A stretch of 13,842 nt of DNA from positions 1-13,842 of the forward strand of contig JALVZS010000177.1 in the NCBI GenBank assembly GCA_027022065.1, in the 5' to 3' direction. This document shows positions 426-8,800 of this stretch, piece after piece. The notes under the pieces were generated by a model that was not told the origin of the DNA, ran no database searches, and worked only from the letters and a program-made list of their open reading frames with translations. Numbering within the stretch: position 1 is the stretch's first letter; each line of letters opens with the position of its first letter. Position numbers and translations under genes: made by a program. Origin of the DNA: a bacterium (GTDB taxonomy: Bacteria > Thermosulfidibacterota > Thermosulfidibacteria > Thermosulfidibacterales > Thermosulfidibacteraceae).

Positions 426-1997
426 CTAGGATTGTTTAGAGCGCAGAAGCAGGAAGAGCTTATCCCTGTTTCTCATTTTTAACGCTATGGAAAGTTTAGA
501 TTTAACAACTGGAGGGAGTTTCTTCCAGTTTCTCTCGCGGGTTATGATAAAGAACTTTTTGCTTGGTGGTTTTTGGAGGAGGCGTTCTAGATCTTTCGGG
601 CCCTCTACCTTGGGGATGTACAGTCTTCCCAGGTAGTACTCCAGGGCGGCGTCAAAGGAGCCGAGTCTGTAAAGGGGTTGGTCGTCCGCAATTTCTTTGA
701 TCTTTCGTGCAAGGGGTTTTGCGGAGCGGTGAAGCCTGTCGTAAACGGGCAGGAACCAAAGTACATATAAGGAGTAGGCGATAAAGGCCATGGCGAACAG
801 AAGGATAAGCGCGCTTATGAGGCTTTTTCTTTTTGCTGCTAGGTATGCGGCTGCTATTGGAACGGGAAAAAGCAGATAAAAAGCCTTGGGGCATGGGATC
901 CTGAACAGAATAGGGGCGAAGACCGCCAGTCCCATCAGGATAAAGGATAGGTGAACTCCCAGCCAGATGAGCTTTTTCAGGGGTTCGCTATTTTTTAATC
1001 CCTTGGCGGTGGTGATTCCGGCCGTCATCGCAAGGGCGGGGGCCAAGGGGAGTAGGTATATGACCCTTTTGGCCGCAGCAAGGGAGAATATGGTAAAGGT
1101 GAAGGTCGCCCAGGTTAGAGGCAGAAGCAGGGAGGAAGCTTTTCCCTCTCTTTTTTGAAGGCAGACAGCCGCGGGAACAAAGAAGGCGGATGGAGCATAG
1201 GAAACAGGAGCTGCCTCTATGTAAAAGTACCAGGGCTTTACATGGTCCAGCCCTTTTAGGGCGTGCTTCAGGTTGTGAAGGAGGAAAAATTCTCTGCAGA
1301 ACTCAGGCCCCACCGCTATGTACCAGGGAAGGGCTATTGCTGAAAAGAGCAGAAGTCCTTGAAGGGGCTTCATCTGCTTAAGCTCGTCAAGCCTTCCCAC
1401 GAGTGCAAGGAAGATGATGATTGTGCCTAAAGGGATGACCACCGCAACGGGCCCCTTGGTGAGAAATCCCAGTGCAGATGCCGCGTAGCATCCCAGGTGA
1501 AATTTCTTCCTTGAAGTTTTGAAGCCCTTGTAAAAGAAAAAGAAAGCTAAGGTTATGAAGAGGCACAGGGGAGCGTCAGGCAGGCACCTTCTTGCGGTTT
1601 CAAAGAACTCTACTGTGAATAGCAGGAAGATTCCCGATAGGATGCCAGCGGTTTCGTCCTCAAGCTCTTTTGCGAAGAGTATCGTCACCGCGATGCACAG
1701 AATTGCCGACAGGGCAAAGGAGATGCGGGCCACAAACTCGTTGATCTTTCCTCTGTTCAGAAGGACTGCGCTTATAATTATGAGCCAGTAGGTGAGCACA
1801 GGCTTGTCGGCCCTCAGCTTCCCTTTGTATATGGGGGTTATCCAGTTGTGAAGGATGAGCATGTTTCTTGCGGTGTGGGCGTATCGGGGTTCGTTGTTGT
1901 TCCAGAGGGATATCTTTCCCAGATTTGCGGTGAATAGGAATGCGGAGGCGGCTATAACCAGAACAAACAGGATGTTAAACTTCAAGCTCCTTGACAC
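426..1997 (-). CDS. ArnT-like (GT83) polyprenyl-phosphate sugar:lipid A glycosyltransferase, second copy (GT-B)
   Basis: This 523-aa integral inner-membrane protein would take a sugar from a polyprenyl-phosphate donor and attach it to lipid A or another acceptor on the periplasmic face. It has about a dozen hydrophobic segments and a soluble C-terminal tail. Family landmarks include NEPRYAHTARNM at 35-46, DKPVLTYW at 64-71, an acidic residue in ARRCLPDAP (D141), FLTKGP at 178-183, and AAAKRVIYLLPL at 307-318, all aligning with E. coli ArnT positions. The first motif carries Asn35 where GT-A and E. coli ArnT have Asp. The start is GTG at 1997-1995, backed by GAGGGAG a few bases upstream; this gives a 23-bp overlap with the GT2 gene, which suggests translational coupling. 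It is last in the five-gene operon. The donor could be a uronic acid, as in RgtD/RgtF-type enzymes, or an amino sugar, as in ArnT/FlmK; sequence alone does not decide. Confidence 0.8.
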   Translation of the reverse strand: MSRSLKFNILFVLVIAASAFLFTANLGKISLWNNNEPRYAHTARNMLILHNWITPIYKGKLRADKPVLTYWLIIISAVLLNRGKINEFVARISFALSAILCIAVTILFAKELEDETAGILSGIFLLFTVEFFETARRCLPDAPLCLFITLAFFFFYKGFKTSRKKFHLGCYAASALGFLTKGPVAVVIPLGTIIIFLALVGRLDELKQMKPLQGLLLFSAIALPWYIAVGPEFCREFFLLHNLKHALKGLDHVKPWYFYIEAAPVSYAPSAFFVPAAVCLQKREGKASSLLLPLTWATFTFTIFSLAAAKRVIYLLPLAPALAMTAGITTAKGLKNSEPLKKLIWLGVHLSFILMGLAVFAPILFRIPCPKAFYLLFPVPIAAAYLAAKRKSLISALILLFAMAFIAYSLYVLWFLPVYDRLHRSAKPLARKIKEIADDQPLYRLGSFDAALEYYLGRLYIPKVEGPKDLERLLQKPPSKKFFIITRERNWKKLPPVVKSKLSIALKMRNRDKLFLLLRSKQS

Positions 1998-2856
1998 GAA
2001 AGACTCCCTCTCTTTGAGCTTTGTTGAAGCGCTTGAGGTTTCTGTAGGCTATTAGGTTCAGTGCGAGAAATGCTGCAACTACTGAAGCTAAAATGGGCTT
2101 GCCCAGTATAAGGCAAAAGAAGAAAAAAGCTAAAAGCAAAAAGGCTGAGTACTTCAGTCTTTTCTGATTTTTTTCAGGCTCTTTTAGGACGAATCTTATG
2201 GTGAACAGCTCTCTTAGGACTTCAAACGTGCGCTTCAACCCGTAGTGGCTCTTTCCGAATCTGCGGGGCCTGTCCACCACCCTTATCTCTGTGACCTCGT
2301 GGTTCTTCACTCCAAAAACCGCCGGTATAAATCTGTGAAAGCCATGGGGTATCTGAATCCTTTTAACCACCTCGGCCCTGTAGGCCTTCAGACTGCACCC
2401 GTTGTCGTGAACCCTGACTCCCGTAATTAGCCCTATTATGCGGTTGGCTATCCACGAGGGGATCCGGCGGGTAAAAAGTGGTTCCTTTCTCTTTATACGC
2501 CATCCCGATACCACCTTGTAGTTGCCCTCTTTGAGTATTTTCACCATTTCGGGGATGTATGCGGGATCGTTCTGGCCGTCTCCGTCCATGCTTATCACGA
2601 TTTCCCCTCTTGCGTGGGCGAAGCCGGCGGTTAGTGCCGCCGCTTCGCCCCTGTTTCTGTCCATGTCCAGCACCCTTACCCTGGGGTCATTCTTTTTCAG
2701 TTTCAGAAGCACCTCCTTCGTGCCGTCTGTGCTTCCGTCGTTTACGTAGATAATCTCAAACTCCTCTTTTAGGCTTTCCAGGGCGGGTATAAGCTCTTGG
2801 TAAAGAGGCTCTATGTTCTTTTCCTCGTTGTGCACTGGTATTACCACCGATATCAT
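1975..2856 (-). CDS. GT2 polyprenyl-phosphate glycosyltransferase (ArnC/RgtE/DPM1-like)
   Basis: This 293-aa enzyme probably transfers a sugar from a nucleotide donor to undecaprenyl or dodecaprenyl phosphate on the cytoplasmic side, supplying the ArnT-like transferases in the same operon. The GT-A fold is visible: VVIPVHNEE at 4-12, VNDGSTD at 38-44, the metal-binding DGDGQNDP at 91-98, and a basic RRFGKSHYGLKR segment at 198-209 typical of dolichyl-phosphate-type synthases. Two membrane segments follow at about 236-272. The reading frame stays open 50 codons further upstream, but the ATG at 2856-2854 is preferred. It starts directly at the conserved MISVVIPVHN core, it has GGTGGAGG upstream, and it makes an ATGA overlap with the aminotransferase stop. 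The sugar is unknown; galacturonic acid (RgtE-like) is the favoured guess from operon context. Confidence 0.85.
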   Translation of the reverse strand: MISVVIPVHNEEKNIEPLYQELIPALESLKEEFEIIYVNDGSTDGTKEVLLKLKKNDPRVRVLDMDRNRGEAAALTAGFAHARGEIVISMDGDGQNDPAYIPEMVKILKEGNYKVVSGWRIKRKEPLFTRRIPSWIANRIIGLITGVRVHDNGCSLKAYRAEVVKRIQIPHGFHRFIPAVFGVKNHEVTEIRVVDRPRRFGKSHYGLKRTFEVLRELFTIRFVLKEPEKNQKRLKYSAFLLLAFFFFCLILGKPILASVVAAFLALNLIAYRNLKRFNKAQREGVFRVKELEV

Positions 2857-3965
2857 GAGAAGAACCCCTCCACCTCTTGGACTACCTTTTCCATCTCCTG
2901 CTGGGTCATTTCGGGAAACAGGGGTATGGCCAAGCCCTGGCTGCAGAGCCTTTCGGCAACGGGGAAGTCTCCCTCTTTGTGAGAAGCTAGCCCTGCGTTC
3001 TTCCATGCGGGCTGCAGGTGTAAAGGAATGGGGTAGTAAAGGCCCGTTCCTATGCCCTTTTCCTTCAGGTGCTTCTGAAGTGAGTCCCTTTTCGGGGTAA
3101 AGAGCATGAATCTGTGGTAGACGCTAAAGTTTCCTTTTTTATCCTCAGGAGGAAGCCTGAGCTCTTTTATGTGGGAAAGCCTCTTTCTGTAGAAGTCTGC
3201 AATCTGCCTCCTTATTCTGTTCTTCTCATCAAGCTTCTTCAGCCTCGCCCTCAAAACAACTGCCTGCAGCTCATCCAACCTGCAGTTGAAGCCGTAAAAG
3301 TGGGGCTCGTTCTTTTTCACCTGCCCGTGAACCCTCAGGAACTTCAGTCTGTGAGCCACCTCCTCGTCGTTGGTAATTACCAGGCCTGCATCTCCGAGGG
3401 CGTTGAGGTTCTTCACCACGCCGCAGCTGAAACAGCCTACCTTTCCAAAGGTGCCCACCTTTCTACCCCTGTACAGAGCTCCGTGGGCGTGGGCGGCATC
3501 CTCAATGAGGATGAGCCCGTGCCTCTCGCATATGTCCAGTAATTCTCCTATTTTGCAGGGGTGGCCGTACATGTGGACCGCAAGGACGGCTTTGGTTTTC
3601 GGCGTTATGGCCCTTTCAACAGCTTCGGGATCCGGGCCGAAGCTCTCCTCTTCCGCATCAACAAGCACAGGGGTCGCCTCGGTCCATATAACGGCCTCCA
3701 CATCCGCCACAAATCCGTTTGCCTGGACTATCACTTCATCGCCCCTTCCTATCCCGCAGGCTACCATGGCCAGCCAGAGTGCCTCTGTTCCGGAGCCCAC
3801 ACCGAACGCGAACTTTACTCCGAAGTACTGGGCCGCCTCCTTCTCAAAGGCCAGAAGATTATCACCGTTCAAAAGCTTCATGCTTTCCGTTACCTCTCTC
3901 CAACCCTTTTCCACCTCTTCTTTTATCTCCTGCCACTCCCTTTTAAGATCCAGAAGGGGTATCAT
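2853..3965 (-). CDS. DegT/DnrJ/EryC1/StrS-family PLP sugar aminotransferase (GnnB-like)
   Basis: This 370-aa cytosolic PLP enzyme would aminate a keto-sugar nucleotide. Family features: MIPLLDLKREW at the N terminus, the phosphate-binding GSGTEAL at 57-63, IEDAAHAHGA at 154-163 with PLP-ring Asp156, and Lys185 in the CFSCGVVKNLNALGD segment as the Schiff-base lysine. Length is normal. The ATG at 3965-3963 has GGGGAGG nine bases upstream and lies 2 bp after the dehydrogenase stop. Pairing with a Gfo/Idh/MocA dehydrogenase points to oxidation then amination at C3 of UDP-GlcNAc (GnnA/GnnB), or of the uronic acid (WbpB/WbpE). No WbpD-like acetyltransferase is present, and lipid A-type glycosyltransferases surround it, so GnnB is favoured. 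The family is near certain; the substrate is inference. Confidence 0.92.
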   Translation of the reverse strand: MIPLLDLKREWQEIKEEVEKGWREVTESMKLLNGDNLLAFEKEAAQYFGVKFAFGVGSGTEALWLAMVACGIGRGDEVIVQANGFVADVEAVIWTEATPVLVDAEEESFGPDPEAVERAITPKTKAVLAVHMYGHPCKIGELLDICERHGLILIEDAAHAHGALYRGRKVGTFGKVGCFSCGVVKNLNALGDAGLVITNDEEVAHRLKFLRVHGQVKKNEPHFYGFNCRLDELQAVVLRARLKKLDEKNRIRRQIADFYRKRLSHIKELRLPPEDKKGNFSVYHRFMLFTPKRDSLQKHLKEKGIGTGLYYPIPLHLQPAWKNAGLASHKEGDFPVAERLCSQGLAIPLFPEMTQQEMEKVVQEVEGFFS

Positions 3966-3967
3966 CT

Positions 3968-5035
3968 CTAGCGCCTCCCCAGCTTGGATTTTTGAGGGGA
4001 AAAGGGGAGCTTTACAGGCTCTCCCCTCTCCGCCGATTCATAAAGGGCCTGTATCAGCTGAACAGAAGAGAGAGCATCTTTTCCTATGCAGAGCTTCTCG
4101 TCGGGTTCTTCTCCCGCAAAGTACCTCAGAGCCGCTTCTATATAAGCCCTGTGGGAGTATCCCAGGGGATCCTCCGGGTTCTTCTTAAAGGCCTCTATTT
4201 CCTCATTTGGAAAATCCCTTTCCTCCGATGCTATGCTTATCAGCTCGTTCATGGCAAAGCCGCCAACTCTTGCATGTCCCTTCTCCCCCAGGATGGTGAG
4301 CTCTGCTCCGATGTCGCTGGGTCTTGCGCAGGTTGTGGCCTCTACGGTGCCAAGCGCTCCGTTTTTGAATTTCACCACTCCCACGAGGATGTCCTCCGCC
4401 TCTATTTCTGCCAGCCTTGTGGCCATCTGGGCGTAAACGCTTTCAACTTCACCTCCCAGCCAGCAGAGCATGTCCATGTGGTGGGCTCCCTGCTGTGCCA
4501 GAACGCCTCCATCGTAGGCCCAGGTGCCCCTCCAGGGGGAGCTGTCGTAGTAGCTCTGGTGTCTGCACCAGTAGAATCTTGCTGACACGAGGATAGGGTT
4601 GCCCAGCCAACCGGCATTTAAGGCGTTTCTTACAAGTTTTATGGGAAGGTTGAAGCGGTTCTGATATATGGTGACAAGCTTTAGATTAAGCTCTTCTGCC
4701 GTTTTTACCAACTCCTCAGCTTCATCAAGAAGCAGCGCTATGGGCTTTTCCATAAGGATGTGCTTTTTGAACTTTTTCATGATGGGTAAGCCGATTTCTG
4801 CGTGAAGGCCGGAAGGGACGGATATGTCCACAACATTTACTTCTGGATGTCTTTCCAGCATGTCTTGCCAGTTCGCAAAGGCTTCAGCTTCTGCCTCTTC
4901 GGCGAAGGCCCTCGCCTTCTCTTCCACTTCATCTGCCACCGCCATCACATTCACCCACTCTATCTGATTGTAGATCTTAAGGTGGCGGCTTGCCGCCTTT
5001 CCGCATCCTATTATGGCTATGCTGAGCGCTTTCAT
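3968..5035 (-). CDS. Gfo/Idh/MocA-family NAD(P)-dependent sugar dehydrogenase (GnnA/WbpB-like)
   Basis: This 355-aa cytosolic oxidoreductase has an N-terminal Rossmann fold with IAIIGCGKAA at 6-15, the EKPIALLLDEAEEL signature at 96-109 (catalytic-type Lys97), and the C-terminal substrate domain with GGVLAQQGAHHMDML at 176-190, where a His/Asp pair normally faces the substrate. With the adjacent aminotransferase it probably makes a 3-keto then 3-amino sugar nucleotide; the best match by context is GnnA, which oxidises the 3-OH of UDP-GlcNAc for 2,3-diaminoglucose lipid A. WbpB-type UDP-GlcNAcA 3-dehydrogenase is the main alternative. The ATG at 5035-5033 overlaps the stop of GT-A as ATGA and is preceded by GGGAGA. 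No truncation is seen. Confidence 0.88.
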   Translation of the reverse strand: MKALSIAIIGCGKAASRHLKIYNQIEWVNVMAVADEVEEKARAFAEEAEAEAFANWQDMLERHPEVNVVDISVPSGLHAEIGLPIMKKFKKHILMEKPIALLLDEAEELVKTAEELNLKLVTIYQNRFNLPIKLVRNALNAGWLGNPILVSARFYWCRHQSYYDSSPWRGTWAYDGGVLAQQGAHHMDMLCWLGGEVESVYAQMATRLAEIEAEDILVGVVKFKNGALGTVEATTCARPSDIGAELTILGEKGHARVGGFAMNELISIASEERDFPNEEIEAFKKNPEDPLGYSHRAYIEAALRYFAGEEPDEKLCIGKDALSSVQLIQALYESAERGEPVKLPFSPQKSKLGRR

Positions 5036-6618
5036 CTTTTCTCTCCCGCCTCAAATAGGGTAAACCTGTGCCCACAGGGCTGCTGGTATATGGGCCTGTA
5101 GCCCCGCTTGGCAAAGTAGCGCTTAAAGTACTTGCCCTTCGTTATCACATAAAGCTTTTCTTTGCTTTCAAGGATCTTCTGAACTTCCCTTCTTTTCACC
5201 ACAGGAAGTGGAAATCTCTTGGTGTAGAAGTTGAACTCTCCGGCGTGGGATGTGGTGATGCCAAAGAGCACTATGGGGGCACTGTTCTCTTCAGAAAGCC
5301 TCACCGCTTCTTCGCAAAGCCTCTTTGAGCTCTTGCACACATCCAGCTTGGAAAAGACAAAGGTAAAAGAAAACAAAAGCAGGGCCGAGGAGGCCAGGGC
5401 GATAAACTCCCTCATCTTTAGGGGATTTTCCTTTATGGTGAAAAGTCCGAGTGCGGTAAGAAGGGCACAAAGCAGTACCAGGGCAACGGACGGCCCAAGG
5501 AGGAATTTCAGCCTGAGGGATGCTACAATAGCGGTGAGGGCCACTAGAGGAAGCGCCGCTACCGTTGCGTAGAGGCAGTATTTCATCCACCTCGTTATAA
5601 TGCCCATGCTCAGATGTTCCTCAAGGTAAAGGGCGATTATCACGGCTATAGCTGGGTATACGGGGATGAGGTAGGGGCTTCTTTTGGTCTTGGCCAGGGA
5701 GAAGAAGATGAAGTTTGCGGTAAACCACCAGAAGAATAGGAGAAAGGGCCTTCTCTTAGGTTCAGGAAGCCTCAGGCCATAGTACAGAGCGGGAGGCAAA
5801 AAGAGCACCCAGGGGAAAGCATCTGCCAAAAGGTGGTAGAAGTAGTAAAAGAGGCCGTGTCTGTGAACGTTGGTGTGCAAAAAGAGGGCGGAGGTTCTGT
5901 AGTATATCTGCTCTAGGGCGTATCCCTTTCCCAGCTTGAAACAAGCGGGAACGAGCCAGGCCAGGTATATTAGCAGGGATACGGGAAAGGCCAGCCAGAA
6001 CTCCTTTTCCTTGAGGATGTGGAGGTCTTTGTTGTGTATGTGATAAGCGGCAAGGGCCAGGCCTGGGACCGAAAAGGCAACGGGGCCTTTGCATAGCGCT
6101 CCCACTCCTACTGCTGTGAAGCCCGCAAGGTAGAAAAGGAATTTTTTCCCTCTTTCCCGCCTGTTTATCAGGTTTCCAAAGTAGAAGGCCATTATGGCGA
6201 GGATGACGAATAGGGCGGTGGGAACATCCATCTTTGCCCTTCTTGCAAGCCAGGCAAACCAGGGAGTGGTTGAAAGAATTATCCCGCTCCAGAAGCCCAC
6301 AGATGGAGAAAAGACAAGCGAAGCAAAAACGGCGGTTAACATCACAGTTAGCAGCCCTGAAATAGCGGCGGGTATCCTTGCGGAGCTTTCCTTGATACCG
6401 AGAAGCTTGTAGGAAGTCGCTATCATCCAGAAAAGCAGAGGTGGCTTTCTGGTGTAGGTTTTTCCGTTAAGGTGGGGAATCAGATAGTCGTGGGTTACTA
6501 CCATTTCCCTAGCCACTTCTGCATAGCGGGGTTCATCCGGTGCCCAAAGGCCCCAACCACCCAGATTCCAGAAAAACAGCAACACCGCAGTGATAAGTAT
6601 AACAACCCATCTGGCCAT
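5032..6618 (-). CDS. ArnT-like (GT83) polyprenyl-phosphate sugar:lipid A glycosyltransferase, first copy (GT-A)
   Basis: This is the first gene of the operon, 528 aa. It is an inner-membrane transferase with many membrane segments up to about residue 420 and a periplasmic C-terminal domain at about 425-528. It has canonical family motifs: PDEPRYAEVAREM at 27-39 (D28/E29), RKPPLLFW at 58-65, RRAKMDVPTALF with D131, ALCKGPVAFSVP at 174-185, HRHGLFYYFYHL at 252-263 and SLAKTKRSPYLIPVYP at 307-322. The frame is open 11 codons further upstream to a GTG, but the ATG at 6618-6616 is chosen because GGGAGGT lies six bases before it and the protein then begins at the first membrane helix. It is a diverged paralogue of GT-B at the other end of the operon, suggesting two attachment sites or two acceptors. 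The sugar donor cannot be read from sequence. Confidence 0.85.
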   Translation of the reverse strand: MARWVVILITAVLLFFWNLGGWGLWAPDEPRYAEVAREMVVTHDYLIPHLNGKTYTRKPPLLFWMIATSYKLLGIKESSARIPAAISGLLTVMLTAVFASLVFSPSVGFWSGIILSTTPWFAWLARRAKMDVPTALFVILAIMAFYFGNLINRRERGKKFLFYLAGFTAVGVGALCKGPVAFSVPGLALAAYHIHNKDLHILKEKEFWLAFPVSLLIYLAWLVPACFKLGKGYALEQIYYRTSALFLHTNVHRHGLFYYFYHLLADAFPWVLFLPPALYYGLRLPEPKRRPFLLFFWWFTANFIFFSLAKTKRSPYLIPVYPAIAVIIALYLEEHLSMGIITRWMKYCLYATVAALPLVALTAIVASLRLKFLLGPSVALVLLCALLTALGLFTIKENPLKMREFIALASSALLLFSFTFVFSKLDVCKSSKRLCEEAVRLSEENSAPIVLFGITTSHAGEFNFYTKRFPLPVVKRREVQKILESKEKLYVITKGKYFKRYFAKRGYRPIYQQPCGHRFTLFEAGEKR

Positions 6619-6709
6619 AATAACCTCCCACTGCCGTAACTGTAATAGCACATAATAGGCAACTTATGCAGGTGAATGTTTTTTAACCTTGCTATTTTGT
6701 TTGCAAGAG
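6619..6709. promoter_or_regulatory. Divergent intergenic region between the lipid A operon and the c-di-GMP gene
   Basis: These 91 bp must hold the promoters for both the leftward operon and the rightward PAS-GGDEF-EAL gene unless transcription enters from elsewhere. The best -10-like match for the leftward operon is TATTAT (6657-6652), about 34 bases before its ATG, but no good -35 lies at 16-18 bp. For the rightward gene no convincing pair is seen. No operator-like inverted repeat or riboswitch was recognised. Confidence 0.35.
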
Positions 6710-8800
6710 ATGTATACTTTAGTAGCTGAGGGGGTGCCTGGTGGGGTTGAGGGGATTCTTGAAAAGCTTTTAACCATTCCCAGCGTATTTGTGGCCATCT
6801 TTAGAGAAACTTTTGTTTATCTTTCCCCTCCTTCTCTTGAGAGATTGGGATACTCTCCTGAGGAGCTGAAGGGCCTGAAGGTGTGGGAGCTTGTGCCCGA
6901 TGAGGGGCTTAGAGAACTTGTGAGGCGCAGGGTGAGGGAAAGGGTGTACGAGGGATTTGACGAGTCCATTGTTTACCCTCACATTCCTTTAAGATGCAAA
7001 GACGGCTCTATATTCGTGATGTACGCCGTGGCCACAACGGTGGAGCTTGAGGATGGAAGGGCCGTTCTAGCGGTTGGCTTTGACTTTACCAAGGAGTACA
7101 TGGAGGAGCAGAACCTTCGTAGGGAAAGAACCAACCAGATCCTGAGCCACATAAGGGATATCATCTGCATATTGGATGCAAGTGGAATAATTAAATACAT
7201 CAGCCCGTCTGTAAGAAGTGTTTTGGGGAAGGAGGAAGCGAAGTTTCTTAACAGCAACTTTTTTGATATTCTAAAGTGCTGCGTTTCTGAAAGGGATGTT
7301 GAAAAGCTTAGGAACTTGTTTGAAAGGGCCGTAGGACATCCAGGAATAGCGCTTTCAAGTGCTTTTGAGGTTACCTTTGAAGGAAGAAAGAGGTTCTTTG
7401 AGTTTTATATGCACCTTCCAAAAAACTGGAGGGAAGTGGGCATTGAAGGGCCTATTCTGTCCGTAAGGGATGTAACCGATGTAAGGCTTATGGAGAAGAA
7501 GCTGATTGAGCTTAGGTACTACGATGCGGTTACAGGGCTTCCCAGAAGGCCCCTTGTTATTGAGAAGATGGATAAGATGCTGAGGATCTCCCGCAGGGAA
7601 GGACACATGGTGGTGGTTATCGTTTTGGACATAATGGGCTTTAAGAATGTGAACATGCTCGTGGGCAGAAGGGGAGGAGACGAGTTTCTTAGAACCTTGG
7701 CGGATAGGCTTAAGGAATCCTTAAGGGAAAGCGACCTTATAGGAAGGCTTGAGGGGGATAGATTTCTCATCGTCTTTTCTGGCGTGGGGAGGATCTTTAG
7801 CCTGGAGAGGTTGCTTGAGAAGATCAGGGAGGTCATGAGGCGTTCTGTGGTTGAGAAAAATGGGGTTAAGTTAGAGCTTTCCGCCCGCATGGGCATTGCC
7901 GTGTTTCCTGTAGATGGGGACTCGCCCGATGAGCTTGTGGAAAAGGCAGAGATGGCTCTTTACAAGGCCAAGCAGGCGGGTAAGGAGCTTTATCTTTTCT
8001 CCAGCAACATAAAGAGGGAGCTTGAGAGGAAGCTACAGATGAAATGGGAGCTGAAGAGGGCCATAGATGACGGATCGCTTGTGCCCTTTTACCAGCCTGT
8101 GGTGGATGCCAAAGGCTTTAAAGTGGTGGGAGCGGAGGCCCTTGCGAGGTGGTTTCATCCAGAAAGGGGGCTTATCCCGCCTAAGGAGTTTATCCCTGTT
8201 GCTGAGGAAACGGGGGTTATTACTGATTTAGAACACTACATGCTGGTTAGAATCTTTAATGACATGTTCCTCATCCAAAACGGCAAAAGGCCTTTGTGGG
8301 TGGCCGTCAACTTTTCCCCTAGGCAGTTTTTTGACGCTCGTTTGTTGAACCGCCTTGAGGAGGTGGCAGAGAGGTTTCAGGATAGAACAAGGCATGTGGT
8401 TATTGAGATCACCGAGGATGCGGCTATAGAGAATCCCATGAGGGCTGCAGCCGTGATAAAGGACATAAAAAGCATGGGCTTCAGGATCGCTATAGATGAC
8501 TTTGGGAAGGGTTACTCTTACCTGAGCTATCTAGTGAAGCTGGATGTGGACAAGGTGAAAATTGACAAGCTCTTCGTGGACCAGCTGGTGGAAGATGCGA
8601 AGGTGAGGAAGGTAGTTAAGGCCATGGTGGAGCTTGCCCACTCCATTGGTGCACAGTGCGTTGCCGAGGGGGTGGAGAGAAGGGAGATGGTGGAGATACT
8701 GTCGGAATTGGGGTGCGATGAGTTGCAGGGCTTTTACTTTGCCCGCCCCATGGGTTTGGATGCTTTGAGAAGATTTCTTAAGAAGAGGGAAGCCCCATAG
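6710..8800 (+). CDS. PAS-PAS-GGDEF-EAL protein: c-di-GMP phosphodiesterase with degenerate GGDEF domain
   Basis: This 696-aa soluble protein has two PAS sensor domains (about 20-125 and 142-258), a GGDEF domain (about 265-433) and an EAL domain (about 444-690). The GGDEF active loop reads EGDRF (348-352), and the metal-binding stretch reads VLDIMGFKNVN, lacking the second Asp, so cyclase activity is doubtful; the inhibitory-site RxxD (339-342) is kept. The EAL side looks active: EALARW at 476-481, VNFSPRQF, EITED, IDDFGKGYSYL, KIDKLF and CVAEGVE...LGCDELQG are all present. It probably hydrolyses c-di-GMP, with the GGDEF domain possibly acting as a GTP or c-di-GMP sensor. No membrane segment is seen, so signals are likely intracellular (redox, gas or small ligand via PAS). 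ATG 6710 is chosen by default; in-frame TTG codons at 6689 and 6701 are possible, and no start has a strong ribosome site. Confidence 0.88.
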   Translation: MYTLVAEGVPGGVEGILEKLLTIPSVFVAIFRETFVYLSPPSLERLGYSPEELKGLKVWELVPDEGLRELVRRRVRERVYEGFDESIVYPHIPLRCKDGSIFVMYAVATTVELEDGRAVLAVGFDFTKEYMEEQNLRRERTNQILSHIRDIICILDASGIIKYISPSVRSVLGKEEAKFLNSNFFDILKCCVSERDVEKLRNLFERAVGHPGIALSSAFEVTFEGRKRFFEFYMHLPKNWREVGIEGPILSVRDVTDVRLMEKKLIELRYYDAVTGLPRRPLVIEKMDKMLRISRREGHMVVVIVLDIMGFKNVNMLVGRRGGDEFLRTLADRLKESLRESDLIGRLEGDRFLIVFSGVGRIFSLERLLEKIREVMRRSVVEKNGVKLELSARMGIAVFPVDGDSPDELVEKAEMALYKAKQAGKELYLFSSNIKRELERKLQMKWELKRAIDDGSLVPFYQPVVDAKGFKVVGAEALARWFHPERGLIPPKEFIPVAEETGVITDLEHYMLVRIFNDMFLIQNGKRPLWVAVNFSPRQFFDARLLNRLEEVAERFQDRTRHVVIEITEDAAIENPMRAAAVIKDIKSMGFRIAIDDFGKGYSYLSYLVKLDVDKVKIDKLFVDQLVEDAKVRKVVKAMVELAHSIGAQCVAEGVERREMVEILSELGCDELQGFYFARPMGLDALRRFLKKREAP

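Follow-up and report, generated by a model that had tools for sequence, protein, structure and literature searches.

Which sugar is made by a Gfo/Idh/MocA dehydrogenase and a DegT aminotransferase when their genes are packed together with those of one GT2 and two GT83 transferases, and to which acceptor is it delivered? The question is raised by a five-gene operon in the window, i.e., the whole stretch of 13,842 nucleotides analyzed here (contig JALVZS010000177.1 of assembly GCA_027022065.1, from a hot-vent bacterium of the Thermosulfidibacteraceae), which is contig C177 of a 1.57-Mb metagenome-assembled genome (MAG) that is 88% complete. An earlier note, made from the sequence alone, had read the dehydrogenase/aminotransferase pair as GnnA/GnnB, the enzymes that provide the diaminoglucose of a phosphate-free lipid A. 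We lean, with a confidence somewhat above even, toward another reading: the operon would encode a self-contained Arn/Rgt-like pathway by which a 3-amino sugar, probably a uronic one, is attached as a cap to lipopolysaccharide (LPS), probably to lipid A. The family-level identities of the enzymes, the gene set and its co-occurrence across genomes are observed; from these we infer the exact sugar, its flipping and its acceptor.

All five open reading frames (ORFs) are intact and lie on the minus strand, in the transcription order GT83c, Gfo/Idh/MocA, DegT, GT2 and GT83a (Table 1). The operon is real, and the family assignments proposed in the earlier note were borne out by both Pfam (PMT_2 at 2e-16 and 3e-18 for the two GT83s, Gfo/Idh/MocA at 3e-25, DegT at 9e-111 and Glycos_transf_2 at 1e-36) and NCBIfam. 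The packing is indeed tight, although the ATGA overlaps do not occur at every junction: in transcription order, the genes overlap by 4 bp at the first junction, are 2 bp apart at the second and overlap by 4 and 23 bp at the third and fourth, respectively.

The nature of the sugar depends on the dehydrogenase, which is of the WlbA type by sequence, tree and predicted fold. Its best solved relatives are two WlbA enzymes (2e-58), the WbpB-type structure 3o9z reaching only 4e-7; a five-sequence profile compared with the PDB retrieved WlbA at 8.6e-86 and GnnA (7bvj) at 3e-12, with a glucuronide 3-dehydrogenase in third place. A tree of 111 rows places the window protein with WlbA in a set of 38 rows and GnnA in the other set of 73, both with a Shimodaira–Hasegawa-like approximate likelihood ratio test (SH-aLRT) support of 100. 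The top Foldseek match of its AlphaFold model (mean predicted local distance difference test score 76) is WlbA 3q2i (E 5e-29), an entry whose title describes WlbA complexed with NADH and UDP-N-acetylglucosaminuronic acid (UDP-GlcNAcA; UDP, uridine diphosphate). In addition, the R-x-x-x-YY...WRGTW stretch of the window protein is common to WlbA and, in part, to the glucuronide 3-dehydrogenase.

A better candidate for GnnA exists elsewhere in the same genome. On contig C58 (L033 3073-4816), lpxA is immediately followed by a second Gfo/Idh gene, and the protein that this gene encodes is closest to Acidithiobacillus ferrooxidans GnnA by both sequence (1e-46) and fold (2.4e-28); on the archaeal model for UDP-N-acetylglucosamine (UDP-GlcNAc) 3-dehydrogenase it scores 253 bits versus 112 for the window protein (cut-off 450). 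Homologues of this GnnA-type gene (65-81%) are present in all nine genomes of the order, and the gene adjoins lpxA in each of the six whose neighbourhood was read (the host and five others). The same adjacency is common in a wider genome set, often without a DegT gene beside it. Hence a diaminoglucose backbone may be possible in the host, but through genes other than the window pair.

The aminotransferase leads in the same direction. The window DegT forms one clade with those of the orthologous operons (100/100), and the GnnB proteins anchored by adjacency to a GnnA-type gene (L178, L185 and L215) form a clade of their own (96/95), separate from it. A second DegT of the host, which adjoins a heptosyltransferase I-like gene and accC (contig C2, L035 1771-3844), falls outside the window clade and is a possible GnnB; aminotransferases of WlbA-linked loci belong to the same clade as this second DegT.

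Concerning the substrate, the host possesses a single nucleotide-sugar 6-dehydrogenase and it is of the UDP-glucose type, its best solved match being a UDP-glucose dehydrogenase, with 595 bits on the TuaD model versus 90 on TviB (UDP-GlcNAc C-6 dehydrogenase). Every other genome of the order has an orthologue (70-83%), as do three of the four Thermodesulfobacterial genomes bearing the operon (59-68%), the fourth (G301) showing only a short fragment; a few second copies, which may be of either type, are present in the same-order genomes G005 and G007. One of the four Thermodesulfobacterial genomes also has an enzyme of the UDP-N-acetylhexosamine (UDP-HexNAc) type. As a positive control, in the WlbA-type loci L042 and L046 the 3-dehydrogenase gene does have neighbours for both a dehydrogenase of the UDP-HexNAc type and an acetyltransferase. 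A search of the 10 operon-bearing genomes with the L046 acetyltransferase yielded no WlbB-like acetyltransferase, five weak matches sitting in frames of 465-518 amino acids, which is the size of GlmU. The absence of a WbpD-like acetyltransferase, recorded in the earlier note, thus extends to the whole host MAG, but the GnnA/GnnB route that it was taken to imply does not follow, the enzyme present being of the WlbA type. The canonical partners of WlbA/WlbC, i.e., UDP-GlcNAc 6-dehydrogenase and N-acetyltransferase, were not found in this 88% complete MAG. Since the only 6-dehydrogenase is of the UDP-glucose type and no WlbB-like acetyltransferase accompanies it, our best guess for the substrate is UDP-glucuronic acid, and that for the product is a non-acetylated UDP-3-amino-3-deoxy sugar, namely UDP-3-amino-3-deoxy-glucuronic acid. 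On chemical grounds, a ketone at C3 is not beta to the carboxylate, so that no decarboxylation is expected, unlike in the case of the ArnA product. A literature search for 3-amino-3-deoxy-glucuronic acid in LPS returned nothing usable.

The remaining three genes would account for delivery. The nearest solved relatives of the GT2 are ArnC structures, ArnC is also its best NCBIfam model (below cut-off), and its orthologues are 64-79% identical in all neighbouring operons. The two C-terminal membrane helices previously described correspond, in a simple hydropathy scan, to one long hydrophobic segment, for which two helices are plausible. Both GT83s match the ArnT model below cut-off; ArnT 5ezm is the sole solved relative of GT83c, which keeps the PDE...RYA and KPP motifs. 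Orthologues of GT83c are 54-61% identical in same-order operons, and those of GT83a are 51-53% identical in four same-order operons. ArnT, whose donor is made from UDP-glucuronic acid, needs the Tyr of RYA and the Lys of KP (PMC5377068), and both residues, in the first periplasmic loop, are kept in the two window GT83s. The Asp of the ArnT DE motif (PDEGRY in 5ezm) is kept in GT83c and replaced by Asn (NNE) in GT83a and in its four same-order orthologues; the GT83 of the Thermodesulfobacterial operons also lacks it (GVEGRW).

The arrangement of the operon is not due to chance, because orthologous blocks recur in four same-order MAGs belonging to another family (G004-G007) and in four Thermodesulfobacteria. 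The whole block in G004 and G007 reads GT83a - PAP2 phosphatase - GT83b - flippase-like (PF03706) - Gfo - GT83c - DegT - GT2, and the other two MAGs agree with it in gene content within the limits of their contigs or ORF calls. Thus these same-order operons carry extra genes for an LpxE-like PAP2, a third GT83 and a flippase-like protein. In G002, which belongs to the family of the host, a GT83c fragment, DegT and GT2 lie at a contig end. A scan of named genomes revealed the block GT83 - Gfo - DegT - GT2 in four MAGs, two named Thermodesulfatator, one Thermosulfurimonas dismutans and one Thermodesulfobacteriaceae; the genes that come next encode either an O-antigen-ligase-like (Wzy_C) protein and a GT4 or a methyltransferase.

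Does the pathway act on lipid A? The phosphatase motifs are complete in the PAP2 protein encoded in the operons of the four same-order genomes, and the solved structure that it matches best is LpxE 6ebu (E 1.5e-6, the next best being 0.0015), which we take to be the Aquifex aeolicus LpxE of the published work. Since the Aquifex enzyme also cleaves C55-PP and phosphatidylglycerol phosphate (PMC6581854), this PAP2 is a support for, not a proof of, lipid A dephosphorylation. The same-order operons are reminiscent of Mesorhizobium loti, in which rgtE, rgtF and lpxE are clustered (PMC5644692). No LpxE-like phosphatase was found in the host, whose sole PAP2 match is a PAP2_3 protein without the K-x6-RP motif; a BLAST survey had likewise missed LpxE in Aquifex (PMC7663294), where it was found later as a distant homologue (PMC6581854). 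Therefore the phosphate-free lipid A attributed to the host in the earlier note remains conjectural, the operon lacking a phosphatase and the only PAP2 being of another type. The capping half of that proposal finds partial support in the ArnC/RgtE-like loading enzyme and the ArnT-like transferases, together with the LpxE-like PAP2 of the relatives. Judging from sequence, the sugar is likely to cap lipid A or the inner LPS. The host PAP2_3 gene itself lies beside murJ (contig C133, L127 3428-5823), and its product shows a weak similarity to phosphoinositol dihydroceramide synthase.

On this basis, the following pathway can be proposed. The WlbA-type dehydrogenase would act on a UDP-sugar, most probably UDP-glucuronic acid, and oxidise it at C3; the DegT enzyme would aminate the same carbon, giving a non-acetylated UDP-3-amino-3-deoxy sugar; the ArnC-like GT2 would transfer the amino sugar to polyprenyl phosphate; an enzyme whose gene is not part of the window operon would flip it (in relatives, the operon itself includes a gene for a flippase-like protein); and the two ArnT-like GT83s would pass it to LPS, most likely at the lipid A end. 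A more far-reaching picture, which we offer tentatively and regard as doubtful, is that of a lipid A shared by vent thermophiles of two lineages, in which phosphates are removed or covered and a zwitterionic 3-amino-3-deoxy-glucuronic acid, made from UDP-glucuronic acid by one operon, is placed atop a diaminoglucose backbone provided through the lpxA-linked GnnA.

Each of the alternative identities of the sugar has some ground. That the window pair is GnnA/GnnB, making the 2-acetamido-3-amino sugar nucleotide UDP-GlcNAc3N for the lipid A backbone, appears highly improbable: the two superfamilies are the same and the UDP-GlcNAc 3-dehydrogenase model is weakly matched, but the window protein belongs to a WlbA clade whose split from GnnA is strongly supported, the synteny-anchored GnnB is a separate DegT clade, and G003 has the GnnA-type gene, the window-type dehydrogenase not being found there. 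This assignment was rejected on profile, tree and fold together with the lpxA-linked gene. It is less improbable, although still unlikely, that the donor is the product of WlbA/WlbC, the 2-acetamido-3-amino uronic acid nucleotide UDP-GlcNAc3NA, formed from UDP-GlcNAcA supplied by the host Ugd or another enzyme and transferred as a free amine. Indeed, WlbA is the closest characterised dehydrogenase and uses UDP-GlcNAcA (3q2i title); however, the only 6-dehydrogenase of the host is of the UDP-glucose type, with an orthologue in every same-order genome, and a WlbB-like acetyltransferase is lacking. We give a rather small chance to a neutral donor, UDP-3-amino-3-deoxy-glucose (kanosamine type), derived from the oxidation of UDP-glucose: the latter is available, and antibiotic pathways are known in which Gfo/Idh and DegT enzymes oxidise and aminate glucose at C3, KanD2 and NtdA being among the solved relatives, but WlbA, with its uronate substrate, is nearest by a wide margin and the third profile match is the glucuronide 3-dehydrogenase.

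More room must be left, even if we do not favour it, for a target other than lipid A, i.e., the LPS core, the O-antigen, another surface glycan or a protein. The Thermodesulfobacterial block adjoins genes for an O-antigen-ligase-like protein, a GT4 or a methyltransferase, and the core is the target of GT83 transferases of the RgtA/B/C kind. On the other side, an LpxE-like phosphatase is found inside the operon in four same-order genomes, although Aquifex LpxE is not restricted to lipid A (PMC6581854). Several points weigh against lipid A capping with a 3-amino uronic sugar. The phosphatase and the flippase-like protein that relatives encode in their operons are missing from that of the window; GT83a, with Asn in place of the DE-motif Asp, may have been altered or have lost its activity; core sugars or other glycans can also serve as acceptors for GT83 enzymes; UDP-GlcNAcA is a known substrate of WlbA, and this compound or UDP-glucose may be compatible with the sequence as substrate; lastly, at 88% completeness, missing genes may be missing data.

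The proposed pathway resembles several known systems without coinciding with any of them. It shares with the Arn (4-amino-4-deoxy-L-arabinose, L-Ara4N) pathway of polymyxin resistance the oxidation of a nucleotide sugar, the DegT amination (the ArnB step), ArnC-like loading and ArnT-like transfer, but oxidation is at C3 by a WlbA-type enzyme instead of at C4 by ArnA with decarboxylation, formylation and deformylation genes are absent from the operon, and there are two or three GT83s. None of the ArnA dehydrogenase/formyltransferase, the ArnD deformylase and the ArnEF flippase is encoded in the operon, a genome-wide search not having been made. The Rgt/LpxE system of rhizobia (RgtE, RgtD, RgtF and LpxE) likewise combines a GT2 with GT83s, and an LpxE-like PAP2 accompanies them in the operons of the relatives; the window operon differs in having its own amino-sugar synthesis pair and no phosphatase. 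The galacturonic acid-capped lipid A of Aquifex is similar in its vent thermophile setting. From the WlbA/WlbC (WbpB/WbpE) route to diacetamido uronic acids, with which it shares the WlbA-type dehydrogenase and the DegT aminotransferase, the pair is distinguished by the absence of a UDP-HexNAc 6-dehydrogenase, an acetyltransferase or a 2-epimerase beside the dehydrogenase and by its coupling to polyprenyl-phosphate loading and GT83s, not to O-antigen assembly. The likeness to GnnA/GnnB is that of the two superfamilies, the dehydrogenase subfamily being different and the host GnnA-type gene lying elsewhere, next to lpxA. The FlmK system of Francisella is not known to include a 3-oxidation/3-amination pair. 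FlmK is comparable in that it moves an amino sugar, in ArnT-like fashion, from a lipid carrier to lipid A, but the donor is galactosamine, passed from C55-P-galactosamine to the lipid A 1-phosphate (PMC6581854).

If true, the coupling of WlbA-type 3-oxidation and 3-amination to polyprenyl delivery would add a new cap chemistry. Few sugars are known to reach lipid A from polyprenyl phosphate, among them aminoarabinose, galacturonic acid and galactosamine. The operon occurs in lineages with cultured members (Thermosulfurimonas and Thermodesulfatator), which makes the idea testable by mass spectrometry of lipid A. Moreover, Gfo/Idh and DegT genes beside lipid A-type transferases are insufficient to call diaminoglucose, and the tempting GnnA/GnnB annotation is corrected.

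The operon also appears to be a mosaic. Identities of the window proteins to those of Thermodesulfobacteria are 65-66% (Gfo), 70-72% (DegT) and 74-79% (GT2), versus 47-48%, 61-63% and 64-67%, respectively, to those of their own order; GT83c is 56-59% identical to its counterparts in the order and 30-32% to those of Thermodesulfobacteria. The Gfo-DegT-GT2 block (1975-5035) is therefore nearer to Thermodesulfobacteria than to the order of the host, which does not apply to the GT83 genes on either side. A tree uniting the Gfo genes of the order was rejected (approximately unbiased test, p-AU 1.6e-71); the same tree for DegT was not (0.11). Contamination of the MAG by Thermodesulfobacteria was ruled out by the same-order type of the GT83s and by glnD on the window contig, which follows the host lineage (53-68% to two fragments in the same-family G002, 42-48% to the order and 29-30% to Thermodesulfobacteria). 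The simplest reading is that the dehydrogenase, at least, was transferred between the order and Thermodesulfobacteria, in either direction.

Table 1. Genes of the operon, in transcription order, with their positions in the window
Feature	Position	Strand	Size and evidence
GT83c, ArnT-like polyprenyl-phosphate-sugar transferase, operon gene 1	5032-6618	-	528 aa; ArnT 5ezm, E 7e-31
WlbA-type nucleotide-sugar 3-dehydrogenase, Gfo/Idh/MocA	3968-5035	-	355 aa; profile, tree, Foldseek
DegT-family pyridoxal phosphate-dependent aminotransferase, partner of the dehydrogenase	2853-3965	-	370 aa; Pfam DegT, 9e-111
GT2, ArnC-like polyprenyl-phosphate sugar transferase, C-terminal membrane stretch	1975-2856	-	293 aa; ArnC 9bhc/8vxh, E 1e-35
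GT83a, second ArnT-like transferase, GTG start	426-1997	-	523 aa; Pfam PMT_2, 3e-18

Plasmid-borne relatives in Azospirillum (38-41%) are found within polysaccharide clusters with no GT83 gene annotated nearby. At the head of the G007 operon (L040 11571-12587), a phospholipid-methyltransferase-like membrane protein is encoded. In the window, two neighbouring genes were not counted as parts of the system: an AAA_14 ATPase fragment (Pfam) at 1-426, on the operon strand and cut by the contig end, and a divergent gene about 70 bp upstream of the operon (6689-8800) for a protein that, judged from its sequence, is a GGDEF/EAL-like signalling protein.

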